A stretch of 58,334 nucleotides of DNA from Limisphaerales bacterium (GTDB lineage Bacteria > Verrucomicrobiota > Verrucomicrobiia > Limisphaerales > SXTU01). The stretch covers positions 1 to 58,334 of the forward strand of contig WRPG01000029.1 of NCBI GenBank assembly GCA_009773355.1, in the 5' to 3' direction. The notes under the pieces were generated by a model. The model did no database searches. It was not told the origin of the DNA and worked only from the letters and a program-made list of their open reading frames with translations. Every line of letters begins with the position of its first letter. Position 1 is the stretch's first letter. Below, piece by piece: positions 9,554 through 53,005 of this stretch. Position numbers and translations under genes: made by a program.

Positions 9554-9620
9554 GTGGTCGCAACCTTCAGGTTGCGAATCCGTCGGGATGACTGAAGCGC
9601 AGGCTGAAGCCTGCGACTAC
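9554..9620. repeat. Paired palindromic repeat at the leuS 3' end (GTRGTCGCA...TGCGACTAC)
   Basis: Two small hairpins, TCGCAACCTTCAGGTTGCGA at 9558-9577 and CGCAGGCTGAAGCCTGCG at 9598-9615, are bounded by GTGGTCGC and GCGACTAC, which are inverted ends. The pair lies between two convergent genes and could act as a bidirectional terminator. The same unit types recur at 30923-31045. Confidence 0.8.
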
Positions 9621-29766: not shown

Positions 29767-30926
29767 AACTCCTCTTCGTGTCGAACCTGTTCCCCGACTC
29801 GACCGCCCCCGGTCACGGACAGGTCAACGCCACGGTGCTGCACCAACTCGCGCGGCATTGCGAGATTCGCGTCATCTCCCCGCGCCCGATGCTGCCGTTC
29901 AAGAGCTGGCGGGGCCGCACGCCGCGCGACGAGGACAAAATCTTCCAGCCGCTCTACGTCCGCACCTTCTACGTGCCCAAGTTCGGCGGCCCGTGGAACC
30001 ACCGGCTCATGGCCCGCGCCCTCCGCGAACCGGTGCGCCGCGTGCGCGCGGAGTTTCCCTTCGAGGTCGTGCTCGGCGCGTGGATTTATCCCGATGCCTG
30101 TGCGCTCGATTTGCTGGATGTGGAGTTGCAGGCCCCGCTCGTCGCCATCGCACAGGGCACCGATGTCCACAGCTACCTGCACATGCCGCTGCGGCGGCAC
30201 GCCATCGTGCAGGCCCTCAGCCGCGCCGCCGCCACCATCACGCGCAGCCGCGACCTCTCGACCCGCCTCCACGACGCCGGCGTGCCCTTCATGAAGCTGC
30301 GCCCCATTTACAACGGCGTGGACACCGCCACCTTTCGCCCCGGCGACGCCCTCGCCGCGCGCAGGGATTTGAACCTGCCTGCCGACGCACAGGTTATTCT
30401 CTACGTCGGAAATTTTCTGCCGGTGAAGAACCCGCTCCTGCTCATCAGCGCGCACGCCAAGCTGTGCCGCGTCTCCGCCGAGCCGTGCGAGCTGGTGATG
30501 ATTGGCAGCGGCCCGCTGGAGGGGAAGCTCCGCCGGCTCGCCGGCAAGCTCGGCTTCAGCGCGAACGTCCGCTTCGTGGGCCGCAAGTCGCCCGCCGAGG
30601 TCGCGCGCTTCATGCAGGCGGCTGACGTGCTCTGCGTGCCAAGCAAGCAGGAAGGCGTGCCCAACGTCATCCTCGAAGCCTTCGCCTGCGGCCTGCGCAC
30701 CGTCGCCACGCGCGTCGGCGGCATCCCCGAGGTGCTGGACAAGGATTTCCTCGGCCGCCTTGTCCCCAGCGCCGACGTGGACGCCTTGGAGAAAGCCTTG
30801 GGCCAAACCCTCATGGAAGCCCCCGACCGCGCCGCCATCCTCCGCCACGCCGCGCAGTTCTCGTGGGAACAGACGACGCAGCGCTACATGTCCGTGCTGG
30901 AGGAAGCGTGCGAAGGCAGGTCGTAG
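29763..30926 (+). CDS. GT4-family glycosyltransferase
   Basis: A 387-residue GT-B enzyme. N-terminal domain: LLFVSNLFPDSTAPGHGQV, then VVLGAWIYPDACAL and VAIAQGTDVHSYLH. C-terminal donor-binding domain: YNGVDTATFRPGD, ILYVGNFLPVKNPLLLI, ELVMIGSGPLEGKL, VRFVGRKSPAEVARFM, and the E-x7-E motif in SKQEGVPNVILEAFACG. The features match retaining GT4 enzymes of the WcaL/PimB-like type that add hexoses to lipid-linked glycans or surface polysaccharides. The ATG overlaps the upstream stop. The TAG stop codon itself lies inside the first base quartet (GTAG) of a palindromic repeat (30923-31045), which appears to have set the C-terminus. Confidence 0.92.
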   Translation: MKLLFVSNLFPDSTAPGHGQVNATVLHQLARHCEIRVISPRPMLPFKSWRGRTPRDEDKIFQPLYVRTFYVPKFGGPWNHRLMARALREPVRRVRAEFPFEVVLGAWIYPDACALDLLDVELQAPLVAIAQGTDVHSYLHMPLRRHAIVQALSRAAATITRSRDLSTRLHDAGVPFMKLRPIYNGVDTATFRPGDALAARRDLNLPADAQVILYVGNFLPVKNPLLLISAHAKLCRVSAEPCELVMIGSGPLEGKLRRLAGKLGFSANVRFVGRKSPAEVARFMQAADVLCVPSKQEGVPNVILEAFACGLRTVATRVGGIPEVLDKDFLGRLVPSADVDALEKALGQTLMEAPDRAAILRHAAQFSWEQTTQRYMSVLEEACEGRS

Positions 30927-31045
30927 TCGCAGGCTTCAGCCTGCGAATCGGTTTGTAGCGGCGGTCTGTGACCGCCGTCATCGCACCTCGGCGCTCGCAG
31001 AGCGCCGCCACAGGTTTGATTTCGCAACCTGAAGGTTGCGCCTAC
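30923..31045. repeat. Four-hairpin composite palindromic element at a convergent junction
   Basis: The element opens with GTAGTCGCAGGCTTCAGCCT (30923-30942) and closes with CAACCTGAAGGTTGCGCCTAC (hairpin about 31024-31040, end 31045). Between lie GCGGTCTGTGACCGC (30961-30975) and GGCGCTCGCAGAGCGCC (30990-31006). The left GTAG provides the TAG stop of the glycosyltransferase, and the right CTAC, read on the other strand, provides the TAG stop of asnB. It is related to 9554-9620. Confidence 0.88.
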
Positions 31046-33612: not shown

Positions 33613-36054
33613 TCACCGGCAGTTCACAGCCTTCTCCTGCTTCTGCCCCGCGAGCTTCATCGGCGGCGTGGTGCCGTTGCTCTTCGGCAGGTTGAGGAGG
33701 CGCTGGGCTTCAGTGAGGAGGAACTTCGTCTCCATGAACGGCTGGTAGCTGATGTCCTGCCAGCGGATGAGGCCCTCGCCATCAATCAGGAACGTGCCGT
33801 GCAGCGGCTGCTGCTCGAAGTCGTCGTGCGCGCGGAAGGCCTTGAAGGCTTTCAGGCCGGAGTCCGAGAGCAGCGGGATGGGGAAGCCGCCGTTGTATTT
33901 CGCCTTCTCGACCGTGAAGTTCAGGCCCTCGACGCTGTCGGTGCTCACGGCCACGAGTGAGATGCCGGCCTTCTTGAACGCCTCGGCCTCCGGTGCGAAC
34001 GCCACGAGCTGCTCGATGCAGTGCGCGCAGCCCGCGCCAAGGTAGAAGATGACGATGACCGGCTTGCCCTTGAACTGGCGGAGGGAAATCTTCTTTCCCT
34101 CGCCATCGGGCAGCGTGAAGTCCGGCGCGGCGGAGGGCTGCCAGCGGAACGGCCCGAGCGACGCTAGGCTGGGGCGCCTGCCGAAGTCCGACGGGCGCAT
34201 CAGCGGCGGACGCCAGTCAGCGGCGAGCTTCAAATCCTTCGCCACGGGCGCGAGGCGGCGGAAGACCGGCGCGTTGAGGTCGGCTTCGGCGCTCAACTCG
34301 CACAGCTTGAAGAAGGCGTCGAACGCTTCCTTGAACTTGCCGCCCTGGTAGGCGAGGTCCACGTAGTTCGCGAGCGGCTGCACCTGCTTCTCGCCGAACT
34401 TCATCGCCTCCTGCGCGAGCTGCTCGGCCTTGGCTTTGTCACCGACTGCGAAGTGGAGGCGGGCCAGGCGCTCCTTAGGAATGCCGGTGGCTTTGCTCAA
34501 CCGCTCTTTCGCAGACGCGAACTGGCCTTCCTTCAGCGCGATGAGAATGCGCAGCTCGGCGATGGCGTTGGTGATGGAACTTGTGCTCGCCGTGGCGAGC
34601 AGTGCGGCTCCGCCGCCGTAGCCGCCGGCGGGGGCGCTCTTCTTCGTGGTGACAGTGGGCGCGGACTTGGGAGCAGCGGGCTTGGCCTCGGCAGCCTTGG
34701 TGGTAGGGCCGCCCTGCTGGGCGGCCTTGGCTTCGGGCTGGACGCGCGGCAGCGCGTCCCTACCAGTTTCGGGTTTCTGCTCGGCTGGCTTGGCGGCCGG
34801 GGCATTCGTCGAGGGCTTGGGCGTGATTTTCTTGGCGAGGGCTTCGAGGGCGGCGATCTGGTTTTTTCCGGCCGTGATGTCGCCGGTGTTCAGCGCGGCG
34901 AGGCCGAGCGCGTGGAAGCGGCGTGCCTCGTGGTCGTTGTTGTCCGTGGGCTGGAGATAGACCGTGCGACTTAGCGAGAGGAGTTCCTCCCACAGCTCGA
35001 AGCGCACGAGTGTTTCGAGCAGGCGTTGGTAGCCGTAGTTCGAGCTGCCCCTGGAATGCGTGTTGAACTTCGGGTGGCGCGGCAGCTCGATCATGTTCTT
35101 CGCCAGGTCAACCGCCCGGCGCGCGGCCCCGATGTTGTTCAGGTCGCGGATGAGCCACTCGTTGTTGTGCGCGAAGTTGTGGATCTGGTCGGGCAGCACG
35201 TAGTTGCCCATCATGTAGGCGTGGTCCACGCGGGCGCTGGCCTCCTGCTGCCACGCGGCGTCGGAGTAACGCTTGAGCGCCGAGTAGGTGTGGCCGCTCA
35301 TGTGCCACATGTGCGCGATGCCGGGGGCGGAGAAGCCGTCGTTCGCGGCGGAGACGAGCGCGTTGGTCGCGCGTTCACCCGCGTCCCACAGGTGGATGCG
35401 GTAGTGGTTCGCGGGATGAAGCGGGTTCGCGGCGAGGATGGGATCGAGCAGCGCGTCCACCTTCTGCTTGTCGCCGTAAGGCACGCCCTTGGAGTTGTCG
35501 CTCCAGTATTGCACGGCCAGCAGCGCCTTGGCCTCCACGTCGGCCGGGAAGTTCTTCACGATGGCTTCGAGCGCCTTCTGATATTCCTGCCGGCGCTCCT
35601 TCTCCGGCTTCTTCTCATCGCGATGGAAGTTGGCGAGCGCGGCAATCCACTGCTGCTCGCGCGGGCTGACGCCGGCCTGGAACTTCTCGGCGGTCTTGAT
35701 GAACTCCTTCGCGCGCTTCGCGTTGTTCACGTTCGCCATCGCGATGCCCCAGTAAGCCGTGGCGCAGAACGGGTCGAGCGCCGCCACCTGCCGGAACGAC
35801 CGCTCGGCCTCGAAGTAGAAAAACCCGTGCAACTGCCCGATGCCCTGGTCGAAGAACTTCTGCGCGAGCGGGTTCTTGGTGGCGATGGGGAAGTGGACGT
35901 TGCCCATGCCGGGCATCAAGTGCGCCTGCTGGCGCGGTCCCTCGTTGTAGGCCTCGCCGTGGAGCGACTGGCCGGCGGGCGTGTCGTGGTCCGCGCGGGC
36001 GGCGGTGGCGGGAGCGAGACACGCGACGAGAAGGAGCGGGAGGGAACGGTTCAT
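33613..36054 (-). CDS. Secreted TPR protein fused to a C-terminal peroxiredoxin (AhpC/TSA) domain
   Basis: An 813-residue protein starting at the ATG at 36052-36054, which begins a signal peptide (NRSLPLLLVACLAPATAARA). Residues 20-400 are helical repeats of TPR type (FFDQGIGQLHGFFYFEAERSFRQVAALDPFCATAYWGIAMANVN is split over two helices), with conserved HMWHMSGHTYSAL and YQRLLETLVRFELWEEL. A Lys/Ala/Pro-rich linker (about 415-480) contains a palindromic repeat in frame at residues 431-452. More TPR-like helices follow, then a thioredoxin-fold domain: PDFTLPDGEGKKISLRQFKG, GAGCAHCIEQL with peroxidatic Cys, and ISLVAVSTDS. Probably a periplasmic thiol peroxidase or reductase on a scaffold. Target unknown. 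Confidence 0.85.
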   Translation of the reverse strand: MNRSLPLLLVACLAPATAARADHDTPAGQSLHGEAYNEGPRQQAHLMPGMGNVHFPIATKNPLAQKFFDQGIGQLHGFFYFEAERSFRQVAALDPFCATAYWGIAMANVNNAKRAKEFIKTAEKFQAGVSPREQQWIAALANFHRDEKKPEKERRQEYQKALEAIVKNFPADVEAKALLAVQYWSDNSKGVPYGDKQKVDALLDPILAANPLHPANHYRIHLWDAGERATNALVSAANDGFSAPGIAHMWHMSGHTYSALKRYSDAAWQQEASARVDHAYMMGNYVLPDQIHNFAHNNEWLIRDLNNIGAARRAVDLAKNMIELPRHPKFNTHSRGSSNYGYQRLLETLVRFELWEELLSLSRTVYLQPTDNNDHEARRFHALGLAALNTGDITAGKNQIAALEALAKKITPKPSTNAPAAKPAEQKPETGRDALPRVQPEAKAAQQGGPTTKAAEAKPAAPKSAPTVTTKKSAPAGGYGGGAALLATASTSSITNAIAELRILIALKEGQFASAKERLSKATGIPKERLARLHFAVGDKAKAEQLAQEAMKFGEKQVQPLANYVDLAYQGGKFKEAFDAFFKLCELSAEADLNAPVFRRLAPVAKDLKLAADWRPPLMRPSDFGRRPSLASLGPFRWQPSAAPDFTLPDGEGKKISLRQFKGKPVIVIFYLGAGCAHCIEQLVAFAPEAEAFKKAGISLVAVSTDSVEGLNFTVEKAKYNGGFPIPLLSDSGLKAFKAFRAHDDFEQQPLHGTFLIDGEGLIRWQDISYQPFMETKFLLTEAQRLLNLPKSNGTTPPMKLAGQKQEKAVNCR
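34701..34764. repeat. Palindromic repeat inserted in frame within the TPR-peroxiredoxin gene
   Basis: The ends TGGTAGGG (34701-34708) and CCCTACCA (34757-34764) are exact reverse complements. Inside are two hairpins, GGCCGCCCTGCTGGGCGGCC and GGACGCGCGGCAGCGCGTCC. On the minus strand it encodes roughly TGRDALPRVQPEAKAAQQGG within the protein's disordered linker, with no stop or frameshift. Confidence 0.85.
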
Positions 36055-51932: not shown

Positions 51933-52005
51933 GTAGCTCGACATTCCAATGTCGAGCGCTGAAGCAACGTCGCCGTCGAGTCTCGACATTGGAATGTCGA
52001 GCTAC
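51933..52005. repeat. Nested palindrome with 24-base exact inverted arms (CTCGACATT units)
   Basis: Arm 51933-51956 begins GTAGCTCGACATTCC. Arm 51982-52005 is its exact 24-base reverse complement. Each arm is itself a palindrome (CTCGACATT-CC-AATGTCGAG). The spacer is 25 bases. The terminal GTAG/CTAC matches the ends of the 9554, 30923 and 34701 elements. Confidence 0.9.
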
Positions 52006-52066: not shown

Positions 52067-52843
52067 ATGAAACGCCGCGCCTTCTTGAAAACCTCCCTCG
52101 CCGCCTCCGCCGTCACTGCTGCCGCCTCCGCGTCCGCCGCGGCCAAGCCCGGTGCCGAGTATTACGAACTGCGCACCTGGTCGCTCAAGGCCGCGAAGCA
52201 GCCGCTGCTCGACGCCTACCTGAGCCGCGCGTTCATCCCCGCGCTGAAGCGACTCGGTATCGGGCCGGTCGGCGTGTTCACCGAGACGCTGCCGAACAAC
52301 GAGCTGAAGGTCGTGGCGCTCATCGTTTATCCCGCCCCGGAGCAATTCGCCACGCTGTCCACCCGGCTCGCCGCCGACACCGAGCATCAGAAGGCCGGTG
52401 CGGAGTATCTCAATGCCAAGGCCGCCGATCCGGTTTATTCGCGCATCGAAAGCTCCTTCTTCGTCGCCATCGAGGGGCTGCCCAAGCTCGCGCGGCCCGA
52501 CGCGACGAAACCGCGCCTCTTCAACCTCCGCATCTATGAGAGCCACAACGAACGCGCGGGCAAAAAGAAAATCGAGATGTTCAACCGCGGCGAGCTGGAC
52601 ATCTTCAGGCGCGTGGGCCTCACGCCCGTGATGTTCGGCGAGGCGCTCGCAGGCGCGGCGATGCCCAACCTCACCTACCTGCTGGTCTTCCCCGGCGAGG
52701 ACGGTCGCAAGCAGGCGTGGGACACGTTCCGTGCCGACCCCGCGTGGCTCAAGCTCAAGGCCATGCCAGAATACGCCGACAAGGAAATCGTCTCGCGCAT
52801 CACCAACCGCCTGCTCACGCCCGCTCCATATTCGGAGCTGTGA
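52067..52843 (+). CDS. Tat-exported NIPSNAP-family protein
   Basis: A 258-residue protein starting at the ATG at 52067. The N-terminus KRRAFLKTSLAASAVTAAASASAAA is a twin-arginine signal. Two NIPSNAP (ferredoxin-like) domains follow: YYELRTWSLKAAKQPLLDAYL...VGVFTE and FNLRIYESHNERAGKKKIEMFNRGELDIFRRVGLTPVMFGE, the second with LTYLLVFPGEDGRKQAWDTFRADPAW. Tat-exported NIPSNAP proteins are common in Planctomycetota and Verrucomicrobiota; their role is unknown. Palindromic repeats crowd both flanks. It seems to be a single-gene unit. Confidence 0.9.
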   Translation: MKRRAFLKTSLAASAVTAAASASAAAKPGAEYYELRTWSLKAAKQPLLDAYLSRAFIPALKRLGIGPVGVFTETLPNNELKVVALIVYPAPEQFATLSTRLAADTEHQKAGAEYLNAKAADPVYSRIESSFFVAIEGLPKLARPDATKPRLFNLRIYESHNERAGKKKIEMFNRGELDIFRRVGLTPVMFGEALAGAAMPNLTYLLVFPGEDGRKQAWDTFRADPAWLKLKAMPEYADKEIVSRITNRLLTPAPYSEL

Positions 52844-52848
52844 CGCGT

Positions 52849-52942
52849 GGAGCGCGGCCTTCACGCCGCCGAGCTGTCCGTGGCAAACGGCGGGAGGCGT
52901 TTGCGGGTGTCGTGACTTTCTGCGGCCTGAAGGCCGCGCTCC
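52849..52942. repeat. Inverted repeat of GAGCGCGGCCTTCA type
   Basis: A 21-base left arm (52849-52869, starting GGAGCGCGGCCTTCA) matches the reverse complement of the right arm (52922-52942) at 20 of 21 positions. Each arm contains the small palindrome GCGGCCTGAAGGCCGC or a near copy. The centre has a GCAAACGGCGGGAGGCGTTTGC hairpin. It sits between the NIPSNAP gene and the aldolase gene. Confidence 0.85.
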
Positions 52943-53005
52943 CCCGCGCGTGAGAAACTGCTTGCGTGTTTGGCGGCGGGGGTGTTTCTCCCGGCAAAGC
53001 ATTTC

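Follow-up and report, generated by a model that had tools for sequence, protein, structure and literature searches.

The element and its host gene

The window analyzed here is a 58,334-nt stretch that makes up one contig of the source genome, a 6.16-Mb draft of a Limisphaerales bacterium assembled in 162 contigs. On the minus strand, positions 33613 to 36054 hold a gene for a protein of 813 amino acids, which is read from its open frame, NCBIfam matches, predicted structure, and orthologues as a helical, TPR-like part followed by a C-terminal peroxiredoxin/thioredoxin-like domain. The NCBIfam peroxiredoxin-type matches, at about residues 642 to 766, fall below the curated cutoffs, and the AlphaFold2 model (38 orthologues; mean pLDDT, 83) contains both the TPR-like helices and a peroxiredoxin-type domain. 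Between the helices at residues 393 to 410 and 491 to 508 runs a linker of alanine, proline, lysine, and threonine (residues 417 to 483; minus strand, 34606 to 34806) that is predicted to be disordered, with pLDDT values below 50. All 11 genomes of the genus have an orthologue of the gene, and this hypervariable, GC-rich linker is its only region with large length differences within the genus. Wider relatives of the protein number in the hundreds and occur in Verrucomicrobiota and Planctomycetota. The nearest named relatives are uncultured freshwater and groundwater Verrucomicrobiota, several of whose records bear a Pedosphaera-type label.

Inside the linker, at 34701 to 34765, lies a 65-nt element that is a head-to-head dimer of two GTAG-tagged, REP-like hairpins. 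Its outer ends form an exact 8-nt inverted repeat (TGGTAGGG/CCCTACCA). Unit 1 (GTAGGGCCGCCCTGCTGGGCGGCC; plus strand, 34703 to 34726) consists of a GTAG tag and a perfect 8-bp stem with a 4-nt loop (GGCCGCCC-TGCT-GGGCGGCC), and unit 2 (GTAGGGACGCGCTGCCGCGCGTCC; minus strand, 34740 to 34763) contains a second perfect 8-bp hairpin (GGACGCGC-GGCA-GCGCGTCC). Both units fit the 24-nt family pattern described below, and both hairpins directly adjoin an outward-facing GTAG, with a 13-nt spacer (34727 to 34739) between the units. Folded as single-stranded DNA, the element reaches -25.9 kcal/mol, compared with -14.9 +/- 2.2 kcal/mol for shuffled sequences (z = -5.0), and none of 200 shuffles attained its folding energy.

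Read on the minus strand, positions 34702 to 34764 comprise exactly 21 codons, which encode GRDALPRVQPEAKAAQQGGPT (residues 431 to 451) within the low-pLDDT linker that separates the helical part from the peroxiredoxin domain. In the comparison of orthologues, these residues were not found in the ten sister species or in any genus outside, and distant relatives mostly carry a charged stretch of about 69 residues of helix-like composition at this position. An initial sequence-only reading of the window had proposed exact 8-base inverted ends, two internal hairpins, about 21 in-frame linker residues, and a comparison of orthologues for their presence, and each of these points held; its hairpin element is real, but the length of 64 nt that it gave is corrected to 65 nt.

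The window contains other palindromes. An intergenic dimer at 51933 to 52005, with 24-nt perfectly complementary arms (GTAGCTCGACATTCCAATGTCGAG), belongs to a different GTAG family, and GTAG hairpins of another family (GTAGTCGCAGGCTTCAGCCTGCG) lie at 30923 to 31045 and 9598 to 9620; a related hairpin is read in frame within the MutS gene of one sister species (L284). The GTAG...CTAC ends of the element had been taken as a sign that it was the same kind of unit as its intergenic neighbors. The tag is indeed common to them, but the stems differ, and a single family uniting the element with those at 30923 to 31045, 51933 to 52005, and near 9598 was rejected. A very stable intergenic palindrome (GGAGCGCGGCCTTCA...; -63 kcal/mol as RNA) is situated between two same-strand genes at 52849 to 52942. 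It was a candidate for the other of the two in-frame insertions claimed for the window, and the gene finder flagged it as coding, but translation puts the palindrome between the genes, leaving that other insertion unconfirmed.

A repeat family that preserves reading frames

The 24-nt unit, GTAGGGMYGNNNTGCNNNNCRKCC, occurs 55 times in the source genome, whereas the reversed-pattern control yields no occurrence. These exact units are spread over many contigs, mostly as head-to-head dimers, and amount to about 42 sites. The spacers within the dimers measure 0 to 96 nt and are mostly unrelated in sequence (21 dimers listed). The base 5' of the GTAG is always a guanine, which is usually preceded by a thymine. 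(A looser GTAGGG...CCCTAC pattern was matched 50 times, against 33 in its control, a count that is not relied on.) Of 116 genomes sampled from the order, 37 contain the unit, and they represent 26 of 81 genera.

Coding context was assigned with our own codon-usage gene finder applied to the loci, which can bridge short intergenic gaps, as it did at 52817 to 52950. By these calls, 29 of the 42 sites of the GTAGGGMYGNNNTGCNNNNCRKCC family lie in genes, with the same frame on both sides of the repeat, as opposed to 2 of the 14 sites of a second GTAG family with the stem GTAGGGCGCGGTGTCC (P = 0.0005, Fisher exact test). When confident genes alone are counted, the number for the GTAGGGMYGNNNTGCNNNNCRKCC family is 22 of 42 (P = 0.015). 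Of random 61-nt stretches drawn from the same loci, 82% are coding, indicating that the GTAGGGMYGNNNTGCNNNNCRKCC family shows no enrichment in genes over random placement but is tolerated there, unlike the second family.

The list of confident coding copies, compiled by hand, has 22 entries: 19 use phase 1 and 3 use phase 0 (P = 0.0009), and none uses the phase in which TAG would be read. The lengths of complete coding dimers are similarly restricted, with 10 of 11 being 3k+1 nt long (P = 0.0001). The phase 1 peptide starts with GRADLPVGQ or GRDALPRVQ and ends with AAQQRGPT or DAQQRVPT. The family is thus multicopy and located mostly in genes, its coding copies keep the frame, and related genomes lack the element at the window's site; the frame-preserving selection is shown statistically. 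The sequence-only reading had anticipated further genomic copies, as found, and had supposed that the element class either tolerates or is selected for open frames. These alternatives are settled in part: selection against frame-breaking copies is clear, and any benefit to the host is conjectural.

NCBIfam assigns the host proteins to families that include MutS (with two inserts), UvrA, LigA, MutL, DnaX, IleRS, RsmB, helicases, ABC-F, and exosortase, and several of the matches span the insert. About a dozen of the copies sampled from other families of the order also lie in coding sequence, most of them sharing the phase. This outside group includes two copies in IleRS (L267 and L256), one of which matches the source genome's copy in position and frame. 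The IleRS of the source genome (L010:36-3032) also has a PilB/GspE N-terminal-like domain, inserted at about residues 525 to 621 and adjoining the palindromic peptide, and a further palindrome-like peptide before VYLEGSDQHRGWF.

Empty and refilled sites in sister species

The genes compared across sister species were picked for carrying the GTAGGGMYGNNNTGCNNNNCRKCC family in the source genome, and the presence of other families in the sisters was not part of the choice. In LigA, five sister genomes have an empty site, a short loop that typically reads SAGEKEEVAW, where the source genome reads S-GRAELPLGLDAADAQQRVPT-EVEEVAW. The filled site exceeds the empty one by 57 nt, and the dimer is 58 nt long. 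This insert is in a loop of the zinc-finger region, at which E. coli LigA has only a few residues between the aligned segments, and in MutS an insert lies just before Walker A.

At four sites (two in MutS, one in LigA, and the linker of the window gene), sister species carry other palindromes, all of them in frame. These comprise GGAGCGCGGACG units and CCCTCACCCCGGCCCTCTCCCC units, both multicopy genus-wide; a GTAGTCGCAGGCTTCAGCC-type element, which occurs twice in the window; a GTAGCAGCCGACGTGAG-type element, present in many of the loci examined; and a GTAGGTCAGGCTTCCAGCC-type element, seen in only a few loci. Gaps in the MutS alignment, of about 930 columns, are confined to two regions, both of them palindrome sites, and the one large gapped region in the LigA alignment is again the palindrome site. 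The four sites are nearly the sole length-variable parts of these proteins. Some sites are mixed: LigA of one sister genome (G005) has half of a GTAGGGMYGNNNTGCNNNNCRKCC-family element followed by another family (CCCTCACCCCGGCCCTCTCCCC), and LigA of another (G001) holds two families.

Genomes having a family in common are in some cases separated on the species tree, so a family may have been inserted anciently and then lost in places, or inserted more than once; even so, the families found per site imply at least about three to four events for every site. The peptides that different families encode at one site have no sequence in common, only a polar, loop-like composition, which speaks for tolerance rather than a specific function.

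Relation to known elements and origin

GTAG-tagged hairpins are substrates of RAYT transposases, and REPINs are mainly extragenic. The element is a GTAG REP of the published kind, having in both units an unpaired GTAG beside a short stem-loop and belonging to a high-copy, dispersed family in which dimers are common. It is set beside families GTAG-1 to GTAG-24 by description rather than by consensus. Its family departs from the usual location of GTAG REPs, mainly between genes, but intragenic members were accepted by Di Nocera et al. (2013; PMC3733652), which weakens "extragenic" as a trait and not membership by tag and stem. In that study of 24 GTAG families, most REPs were intergenic; intragenic in-frame dimers were most numerous in Opitutus terrae, a member of the same phylum (Verrucomicrobia); intragenic REPs were enriched in repair genes, uvrA and the DNA ligase gene among them; and in Xanthomonas, the recB genes of two species carried different REPs at about the same site. 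The resemblance extends to the GTAG tag, the short stem-loop, head-to-head dimers, several families per genome, in-frame copies encoding 20 to 30 residues, and the targeting of uvrA, DNA ligase, RNA helicases, and tRNA synthetases. In contrast to those REPs, most copies of the present family are in genes, the locks on frame and length are measured, and unrelated families occupy the same sites across sister species. Descriptions of a family residing mostly in genes, of a measured frame lock, or of same-site filling by several unrelated families were not found in the open-licence literature.

The older precedents, cited in PMC3733652, are the Rickettsia palindromic elements (RPEs) and the protein-coding palindromes of Wolbachia described by Ogata, Claverie, and colleagues. 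Like the present family, these are inserted in frame in the open reading frames of many unrelated proteins, probably at tolerated positions. However, RPEs have the tag CGTC and no known transposase (PMC3733652), whereas the tag here is GTAG; the element works like an RPE but is not one. With REPINs (Bertels and Rainey 2011; PMC3116915), which are thought to be moved by RAYTs, it shares the GTAG tag and the inverted pair of REP hairpins as a unit. Unlike in classical REPINs, the spacers of the present dimers are mostly not conserved, differing in sequence as well as in length, and the 11 draft genomes yielded no cognate RAYT.

Genes with a Y1_Tnp domain are present in 8 of the 11 genomes of the genus, and some are flanked by other GTAG REPs. 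One RAYT-like gene (L316, in G005) has GTAG hairpins of another family on both sides, and a second (L313, in G001) has hairpins of other families nearby, making both REPtron-like units. A RAYT gene flanked by the GTAGGGMYGNNNTGCNNNNCRKCC family was not found in the 11 draft genomes of the genus, which weakens the RAYT reading for this family and leaves its mobilizer unproven. Elsewhere (L047; G000 C27, about 165 kb), a Y1_Tnp (RAYT-like) domain follows a hydroxyproline-epimerase-like protein in one open frame of 599 amino acids, and the neighboring gene has other palindrome-like peptides inside it.

We consider it likely that the element belongs to a coding-tolerated family of GTAG REPs whose copies a RAYT inserts and selection restricts to open frames in loops and linkers. 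A RAYT-type transposase probably moved the family, as suggested by its tagged hairpins: a single-strand (Y1/HUH) enzyme of this type would act on them and insert copies. The dimer would begin within G/GTAG and end within CTAC/C, giving a net insert of the dimer length minus one, as is exact in LigA; dimers of 3k+1 nt would thereby add whole codons. One of the phase 0 confident copies is a complete dimer of another length, so this rule is not universal. In one of two open phases, such an insert would encode a short polar peptide containing glycine and proline (GRADLPVGQ...AAQQRGPT). Selection would then purge insertions that break frames or folded cores, and the survivors would be those in loops and disordered linkers, as in the linker joining the helical part to the peroxiredoxin domain. 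Most likely, the predicted peptide is carried as a tolerated passenger rather than serving a function.

The inserts might instead be beneficial, retained by positive selection because they tune repair and translation proteins or usefully lengthen linkers. Repair and replication proteins do appear prominent among the identified hosts (MutS twice, UvrA, MutL, LigA, and DnaX), the same bias toward repair genes is reported for other species (PMC3733652), and sister species have had the same sites refilled independently by different families. Tolerance of loops and linkers accounts for the same facts, however; several sister genomes apparently do without the LigA insert, and a polar, loop-like character is all that unites the peptides at one site, making a benefit unlikely. 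We give still less credence to a role of the hairpin in mRNA, in which the stem slows ribosomes and aids domain folding and the peptide is incidental. Its very stable fold and its location, with the helical part on one side and the peroxiredoxin domain on the other, are what such a role would predict, but the bias in frame and phase points to a constraint acting on what is translated, orthologues that lack a hairpin there are intact, and translating ribosomes would unwind the stems.

Reuse of sites could also reflect target choice by the transposase rather than loop tolerance, with older palindromes attracting new ones. The mixed LigA sites in G005 and G001 fit such an attraction, as does the near confinement of length variation in MutS and LigA to these sites. 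This account is doubtful, given that the four sites are also natural loops and that the clean empty sites, seen in LigA only, have no remnant palindrome to serve as a target. That the palindrome arose by chance in the GC-rich Ala/Lys/Pro linker, or through faulty assembly, has a negligible probability. Hypervariability of the linker and the many contigs of the draft genome would allow for it, but the dozens of exact units against none in the control rule out a chance palindrome, the folding score is extreme, and in-frame copies recur in independent draft genomes from other families of the order.

Returning to frame-filtered GTAG REPs, we tentatively entertain an extension, as a possibility short of an even chance, in which a few fixed positions in core repair and translation proteins act as docking sites that unrelated families refill in frame, either because the transposase is steered there or through selection.

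Until now, in-frame palindromes have mostly been treated as a curiosity of Rickettsia and a small number of other genomes. Within this order, there are genomes that carry a score or more of in-frame copies, sister species in which a site is filled or empty, and single sites that hold several families, so that the alternatives of tolerated selfish DNA and new protein segments become testable by comparison. In proteins predicted from metagenomes of the group, peptides of this sort will show up as unusual insertions. If the positions in repair and translation proteins do act as docking sites, the elements would constantly supply essential proteins with material for loop evolution.
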